Source: Archaeoglobaceae archaeon
Lineage (GTDB): Archaea > Halobacteriota > Archaeoglobi > Archaeoglobales > Archaeoglobaceae
NCBI GenBank assembly: GCA_027064525.1
Contig: JAMOPJ010000002.1
Coordinates: 1-64,000 of the forward strand
Direction of reading: 5' to 3'
DNA: 64,000 nt
How positions within the stretch are numbered: position 1 is the stretch's first letter; each line of letters opens with the position of its first letter. Below are positions 464 through 51,562 of the stretch, one piece after another. Position numbers and translations under genes: made by a program. The notes beneath the pieces were generated by a model. The model did no database searches, had not been told where the DNA came from, and saw only the letters and a program-made list of their open reading frames with translations.

Positions 464-541
464 AGCTTAGACGGTGGTGTTGCAATACTGTTGATGGAGT
501 ATTTAAATCACACACAATGTGGAGTCACGACCAGCTTAGAC
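464..541 (+). mobile_element. 60-bp IS1-like non-autonomous element, copy 1, with 9-bp target duplication
   Basis: The element is 473-532. It is flanked exactly by the direct repeat AGCTTAGAC at 464-472 and 533-541. Its ends read GGTGGTGTTGCAATACTGTT on the left and, inward on the other strand, GGTCGTGACTCCACATTGTG. It matches 50563-50622 on the opposite strand at 59 of 60 positions (the difference is G/A at 499). From memory, IS1 ends begin GGTGATGCTGCCAACTTACT and GGTAATGACTCCAACTTATT, and IS1 makes 8-9 bp duplications, so I infer an IS1-family MITE. It carries a TATA-like ATTTAAAT at 502-509. It lies between the 23S gene and hypF and may supply promoter sequence to hypF. Confidence 0.85.
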
Positions 542-50399: not shown

Positions 50400-50525
50400 G
50401 TATTCTTGTCAGCTTGGATCTATTTAGTCGTTTGCCCGACGATAATCTAAAATTTTCGAACAAATTTTTGGTAAAATATATTTAACAGTGATCGATAAAA
50501 CAGATCACTAAGAAAAGAATAGAAA

Positions 50526-50537
50526 AATATTTAAATC
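50526..50537 (+). promoter_or_regulatory. Original TATA box of the LAGLIDADG gene, cut off by the insertion
   Basis: A strong AATATTTAAATC box lies here. Before the 60-bp element entered, it would have been about 27 bases ahead of the ATG at 50559-50561, the right spacing for a leaderless mRNA. The element now separates it from the reading frame. The box is seen; its old role is inferred by joining the two target-site copies. Confidence 0.5.
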
Positions 50538-50554: not shown

Positions 50555-50630
50555 ATTAATGAGGTCGTGACTCCACATTGTGTGTGATTTAAATATTCCA
50601 TCAACAGTATTGCAACACCACCATTAATGA
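50555..50630 (-). mobile_element. 60-bp IS1-like non-autonomous element, copy 2, with 8-bp target duplication
   Basis: The element is 50563-50622, inverted relative to copy 1 and 59/60 identical. ATTAATGA stands on both sides (50555-50562 and 50623-50630). The left copy has ATG followed by two codons and a stop; the right copy has the ATG that opens the LAGLIDADG frame. The insertion thus went into the start codon region and the duplication rebuilt the start. The element's own GATTTAAATATTCC box at 50586-50599 is placed to start transcription near 50617, ten bases before the ATG. Confidence 0.88.
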
Positions 50631-51439
50631 TAGATTTTGAAAAACTTATCGATGAGGTAAGGATGCTAAGGAATAAAGGTTTGAGCTACTCCGAGATTGC
50701 AAGAATGCTCGAAGCAAATGGAATTAAGGTTTCGAGGGTCACGGTTATGAGGTGGTGCAAGGGGTTGCACGATCCTCGAAACAGGCTGAATTTGGTTAGG
50801 CTTGAACCCTCTCCAGAGCTCGCATATATAATTGGCGTCATATTTGGAGACGGAAGTGTAAGCTTCAGGAAGTCTGGTAGATCGTATAACTATCGCATCA
50901 GGCTTAAAGTTGTGGATAAAGAGTTCGCAGAAGAATTTTATGAATGTCTAAGATCAATCGGACTAAAGCCATCGTTTAGGCTTGAGAGGGATAGGACGAG
51001 ATGTGACAGGTGGTGTGTTGAAGCTAACGGTAAGCTCCTCTACGAATTCTTAAAGCAACCGAAAGAGAAGCTGTTTGATGTTGCAAGACAATTTCCCACC
51101 GAGTTTTTAAGGGGTTTCTTCGATAGCGAGGGTTGTGTATACTGGAACGAGCGTAGGAAAAGACTATTGATCACTGCCAGCAATTACGATTTAGAGCTAC
51201 TCCAATTCGTTCAGAAACTACTGGCATCGCTGAATATTCACTCGAAGATATATCTGCAAGCATACGAAGGTAAAAGCGTAAGAATCAGAGACGAATACTA
51301 CGAATATAAGCAAGACTTTTACAGGTTGGATATATACAGATTATCTGCAGTTGCGGAATTCGCAAAGAGCGTTGGCTTTACGATTCCAAGAAAAGCCGAG
51401 AAACTTAGAGACAAACTTAGATTTTTGGGTTCATTTTAA
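50627..51439 (+). CDS. Free-standing HTH-LAGLIDADG homing endonuclease-like protein
   Basis: An HTH (LSYSEIARMLEANGIKVSRV, residues about 20-39, then TVMRWCKGLHDPRN) leads two LAGLIDADG-type helices: ELAYIIGVIFGDGSV near 63-77 and FLRGFFDSEGCVYW near 161-174. Acidic residues stand at the end of both helices (D, E), so the nuclease could be active. No intein or intron surrounds it. Its start codon is in the target duplication of the 60-bp element. The cleavage site is unknown. It may be an active homing gene or a gene taken over as a DNA-binding protein. Confidence 0.88.
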   Translation: MIDFEKLIDEVRMLRNKGLSYSEIARMLEANGIKVSRVTVMRWCKGLHDPRNRLNLVRLEPSPELAYIIGVIFGDGSVSFRKSGRSYNYRIRLKVVDKEFAEEFYECLRSIGLKPSFRLERDRTRCDRWCVEANGKLLYEFLKQPKEKLFDVARQFPTEFLRGFFDSEGCVYWNERRKRLLITASNYDLELLQFVQKLLASLNIHSKIYLQAYEGKSVRIRDEYYEYKQDFYRLDIYRLSAVAEFAKSVGFTIPRKAEKLRDKLRFLGSF

Positions 51440-51487
51440 TTAGCAACCCATTATTTTTAATTTGTTTTTATAAAAATACTAGGATAG

Positions 51488-51562
<75 letters not shown>

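Follow-up and report, generated by a model that had tools for sequence, protein, structure and literature searches.

The window analysed here comprises 64,000 nt of the draft genome of an Archaeoglobaceae archaeon (contig JAMOPJ010000002.1, positions 1 to 64,000). At 50627-51439 on the forward strand it holds an intact frame of 270 aa for a LAGLIDADG endonuclease-like protein (Pfam LAGLIDADG_3, E=1.3e-23). The protein shows two LAGLIDADG-type motifs, IIGVIFGDGS and FLRGFFDSEG, and judged by its sequence likely carries an HTH at the N-terminus. Its relatives in named organisms are all distant and mostly thaumarchaeal, and the solved structure nearest by sequence, I-DmoI, is a distant match as well (E=7e-5). 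Beside the gene a tRNA-Met (CAT) was called by ARAGORN at 51487-51562, below the Rfam gathering score. At the start of the LAGLIDADG gene two direct repeats of 8 bp, ATTAATGA, are located at 50555-50562 and 50623-50630, which are identical in 8/8 positions. Between them lies an element of 60 bp (50563-50622, forward strand) with the ends GGTCGTGACTCCACATTG... and ...ACAGTATTGCAACACCACC.

The left repeat, of which the empty sites described below have the single copy, contains the original start codon, ATG 50559-50561. Read from this codon, only a residual leaderless mini-frame is left, ATG AGG TCG TGA (50559-50570, forward strand), which stops after two further codons, whereas the right repeat supplies ATG 50627 and this opens the 270-aa LAGLIDADG frame. 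The first-pass annotation had interpreted this arrangement as a transposable element inserted into a start region of the leaderless type, with the 8-bp duplication rebuilding the start codon, and had predicted an empty site in relatives. The former is borne out by the sequence, the additional copies of the element and their target-site duplications (TSDs). The empty site exists, too. In two congeneric genomes, G001 (contig C55) and G002 (contig C1), the site is found without the 60 bp and without the second repeat copy and reads ...CATCGAAAAATATTTAAACTTTAGAAATATATATTAATTAATGATTGATTTGAAAAACTT... and ...TACCGAAAAATATTTAAACTTTAGAAAGATATATTAATTAGTGATTGATTTAAAAAACTT..., respectively. There the gene starts with ATG (G001) or GTG (G002), in both cases 22 nt past the TATA sequence TATTTAAA; the corresponding spacing in the window is 23 nt.

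The element belongs to a family of 60–61 bp sequences with 43 dispersed copies in the genome. By sequence, these divide into five or more groups, and some have undergone small deletions in their interior. The copy number was obtained by sequence search and from inspected stretches of the draft assembly and may miss a few degenerate copies. The TSDs are perfect for 27 of the 43 copies (7–9 bp) and show at most one mismatch for 34. The terminal inverted repeats GGTCGTGACTCCACATTGTGTATG and GGTGGTGATGCAACACTGTTGATG are imperfect, their arms agreeing at 19/28 positions, a value equalled by 1–4 of 1000 shuffles. With its short length, multiple copies, TSDs, imperfect inverted ends and an empty site in relatives, and without a coding frame, the element has the characteristics of a MITE. 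Diverged copies with an identical layout are present in G001 and G002. A second copy in the window (473-532, reverse strand, 98% identity) is flanked by a 9-bp duplication, AGCTTAGAC (464-472 and 533-541); it is located just 3' of the end of the 23S rRNA (rRNA match 1-391). According to simple ORF calls, which make individual assignments rough, 14 copies are found in convergent, 10 in divergent and 16 in tandem intervals, and three inside frames. Thus, the MITE family as a whole is not positioned as a set of promoters.

Three contigs of the same genome (C10, C12 and C51) start within one shared insertion sequence, the last letters of which are ...ATTCATCAACAGTATCATAACACCACC and the frame of which ends with ...RFARKTIKFSKSFEMLEISLRLWIHYYNSSTVS and a stop; its opposite terminus, GGTAATGCTACAGTAATG..., was found at the end of C51. 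A near-complete homologous element in G001 encodes an IS1-family transposase (PF03400, E 2.4e-12). In the own genome, a draft of 53 contigs, no match to PF03400 was obtained, while left and right IS1 ends and the C terminus of a transposase do occur at contig ends; the absence is probably explained by IS1 copies falling into assembly gaps. The right arm of the MITE matches the right end of the own IS1, and its left arm the right end of the IS1 from G001, at 20/28 positions each without gaps, which for both arms was reached by none of 1000 shuffles. Furthermore, the IS1 elements of G014, a relative from the same family, have 8-bp TSDs. From the arms and these TSDs, an IS1-type MITE is the best interpretation of the element, which probably became mobilised in trans by an IS1-family transposase. 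An IS6 parentage, at first suggested by the string GTTGCAA in the right end, was rejected as IS6-like ends fit the arms worse than do the IS1 ends. The sole IS6-like remnant (L039, G000:C45:57568) is a decayed element with the ends GGTAGAGACTGTCAAGA (also recorded as GGTAGAGAATGTCAAGA); contig C12 carries a related element at its end (L153).

The element at 50563-50622 does not differ at any position from the copy C38:66939 and its TSD is perfect, indicating that the insertion is recent. In the 464 kb scanned for a chance estimate, 323 starts face intergenic DNA, which amounts to 65 kb in total. Among 43 gene-sparing insertions one would expect approximately 1.2 cases in which the TSD holds a whole start codon, and one was seen. 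The landing on a start codon is unremarkable and an ordinary MITE event, and it was by chance that the 8-bp duplication restored the ATG. Start-region cases such as 50563 and C8:127319 are survivors of selection, not products of a targeting system. The latter copy (L128, G000:C8:127319-127379) lies immediately 5' of a Shine-Dalgarno sequence and start (AAAAGGTGAGAAGATG), and its TSD duplicates that Shine-Dalgarno. Among the papers covered by the literature search, none describes a duplication that restores the start codon of an archaeal gene.

To describe the promoters of this genome, a matrix was derived by EM from 140 ATG genes with clear intergenic upstream regions; it supersedes an earlier one built on noisy starts. 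MITE-bearing upstream regions were left out, so that the LAGLIDADG gene's own box is not part of the training set either. The resulting motif, CGAAAAATTTATATAC, peaks 36–40 nt upstream of the ATG. In Thermococcus kodakarensis, TATA is found ~23 and BRE ~33 nt before the transcript start (PMC4247193), so the peak is at the position expected of leaderless mRNAs. Shine-Dalgarno sequences precede 32 out of 255 genes with intergenic starts and 47 out of 138 operon-internal genes, compared to 8 out of 405 in the control; their scarcity in the first group indicates that the genome favours leaderless first genes. The native BRE/TATA box of the LAGLIDADG gene, AGAAAAATATTTAAAT (50521-50536, forward strand), reaches a score of 8.75, the 76th percentile of genes, at 38 nt before ATG 50559, and the centre of its TATA-like part AATATTTAAAT (~50526-50536) is ~28 nt from this ATG. 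Within the box, GAAAAATATTTAAA is kept in both congeners, the sister boxes scoring 11.46. Judged by matrix score and conservation the native box is intact and in place, contrary to the earlier proposal that it had been replaced.

The same proposal had the element supply the new promoter: its string ATTTAAATAT (50587-50596, forward strand) would start transcription near 50617 and drive a near-leaderless mRNA from ATG 50627, so that the promoter was swapped and the gene kept. At 7.4 bits, the TATA half of this string outscores that of the native box. It also lies at almost the proper distance from ATG 50627, which would give a leader of ~6–10 nt, and the core TTTAAAT is preserved in most MITE copies, also in the congeners. 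A strong TATA half at fitting spacing means that even a BRE-poor promoter could still work. However, at the position of the BRE the element has TGTGTG where the promoters of this genome have CGAAAA, and with a BRE half of -9.5 bits the full motif scores -2.0 bits. This is the best gene-directed score within the element and ranks at about the 21st percentile among shuffled control sequences; the TATA half is present, the BRE half absent. For the majority of copies, the score resembles that of shuffled MITE sequence (medians of the best scores 2.8 forward and 0.55 reverse, 1.7 for the shuffles), the copies are not positioned so as to drive genes, 14 of 43 being found between convergent genes, and the native box persists. 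We therefore consider a promoter swap unlikely. Slightly more doubtful still is the idea that the TATA core as a working promoter without BRE, together with the rebuilt start codon, re-promoted a leaderless gene in a single step. A few copies (group d, C48) score 7.6–8.3 in one orientation; a full BRE-TATA motif with these values is present, forward, in L128 (C8:127319), L129 (C22:8092) and L032 (C48:15397). With regard to promoter donation, these three are a better place to look than 50563. The leader RNA containing the element folds no better than its shuffles (z +1.36), hence a hairpin joining the two ends is not indicated.

Compared to its counterpart in G002 over 171 codons, the LAGLIDADG gene shows a dN of 0.14 and a dS of ~1.8, the latter near saturation; for the adjacent acyl-CoA dehydrogenase gene the values are 0.10 (dN) and 1.9 (dS). 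It has evolved under purifying selection against G002. Nevertheless, neither congener has an intact version of the gene, which thus, from the sequences, looks dispensable in the genus: in G002 (C1, L041) a one-base frameshift is located in a run of seven A, where G001 has six, and the gene in G001 (C55, L042) is frameshifted, with the promoter and the first half inverted relative to the second half. This inversion may be true or an assembly fault; the neighbouring acyl-CoA dehydrogenase and tRNA-Met genes are found in their usual order. Since the insertion is young, the intact frame in the window says little about retention of the gene.

A possible fallback start lies within the frame, with GAGGT (50654-50658) in front of the in-frame ATG 50663, which encodes Met13 (GAGGT-AAGG-ATG, 50654-50665, forward strand). 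The native transcript might therefore cross the element and become translated from Met13, yielding a protein shorter by 12 residues, and operon-internal genes in this genome do use such Shine-Dalgarno-like sites. But codon 13 is not Met in G001 or G002, short strings of this kind occur by chance in coding sequence, and the loss of 12 residues would probably cut into helix 1 of the predicted HTH, which makes a rescue by read-through improbable. That repeat and insert arose without transposition, as an assembly or chance artefact of a draft in 53 contigs, is hardly conceivable in view of 43 dispersed copies with differing, mostly exact TSDs and of the corresponding empty sites in both congeners.

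Altogether, we favour with reasonable confidence a recent insertion of a non-autonomous, 60-bp IS1-type MITE at the start codon of a LAGLIDADG gene of the leaderless type, with reduced expression as the most likely consequence. The element, probably of IS1-type ancestry and mobilised by a transposase of that family acting in trans, entered the region of the start codon. The native promoter presumably still fires at ~50555-50559, and its transcript would now open with a leaderless frame of three codons (M-R-S-stop). The true start lies 68 nt downstream, in another frame and without a Shine-Dalgarno sequence, and the TATA-like core of the element, lacking a BRE, should act as a weak promoter at best. 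Lower expression of a dispensable gene appears to be the most likely effect, with some residual expression possibly due to weak initiation within the element (~50617-50621) or to downstream re-initiation. Two points count against reduced expression, namely the strong TATA half of the element with its fitting spacing and the purifying selection against G002, from which a loss of expression would have been costly over most of the gene's history.

The locus, for which two sister species supply empty sites, is a clean and recent example of a small transposon inserting where a leaderless gene begins. Its consequence is that the duplication preserves the frame while the native promoter becomes separated from the start codon. 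Moreover, a very short archaeal MITE family of 60 bp is documented and tied to IS1. If promoter donation were demonstrated, the locus would exemplify gene rewiring in minimal form.

Among known systems, the MITEs of Sulfolobus (SMN1, SM1–SM4) are short and frameless, have inverted ends and direct repeats, occur in tens of copies and rely on a resident transposase acting in trans (PMC10969869, PMC3718332). The family described here shares with them the short, frameless structure, the inverted ends, the flanking direct repeats and a copy number in the tens, but differs in sequence, host lineage and length, which is 60–61 bp compared to 164 bp for SM3A and 320 bp for SMN1 (PMC3718332). With the IS1 family (PF03400) it has in common the ends starting GGTRRTG, the 8-bp TSDs seen in a relative and the match of both arms to the right end of the insertion sequence. 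In contrast to an IS1 element, the MITE has no transposase gene and its two arms are both right-end-like instead of one left and one right. Finally, like the Correia element and other promoter-bearing bacterial MITEs it is a small MITE beside a gene and contains a promoter-like string (PMC10969869). For the Correia type, the promoters have been tested and the elements are upstream of genes, whereas the motif found here has no BRE and the copies show no preference for the upstream regions of genes.
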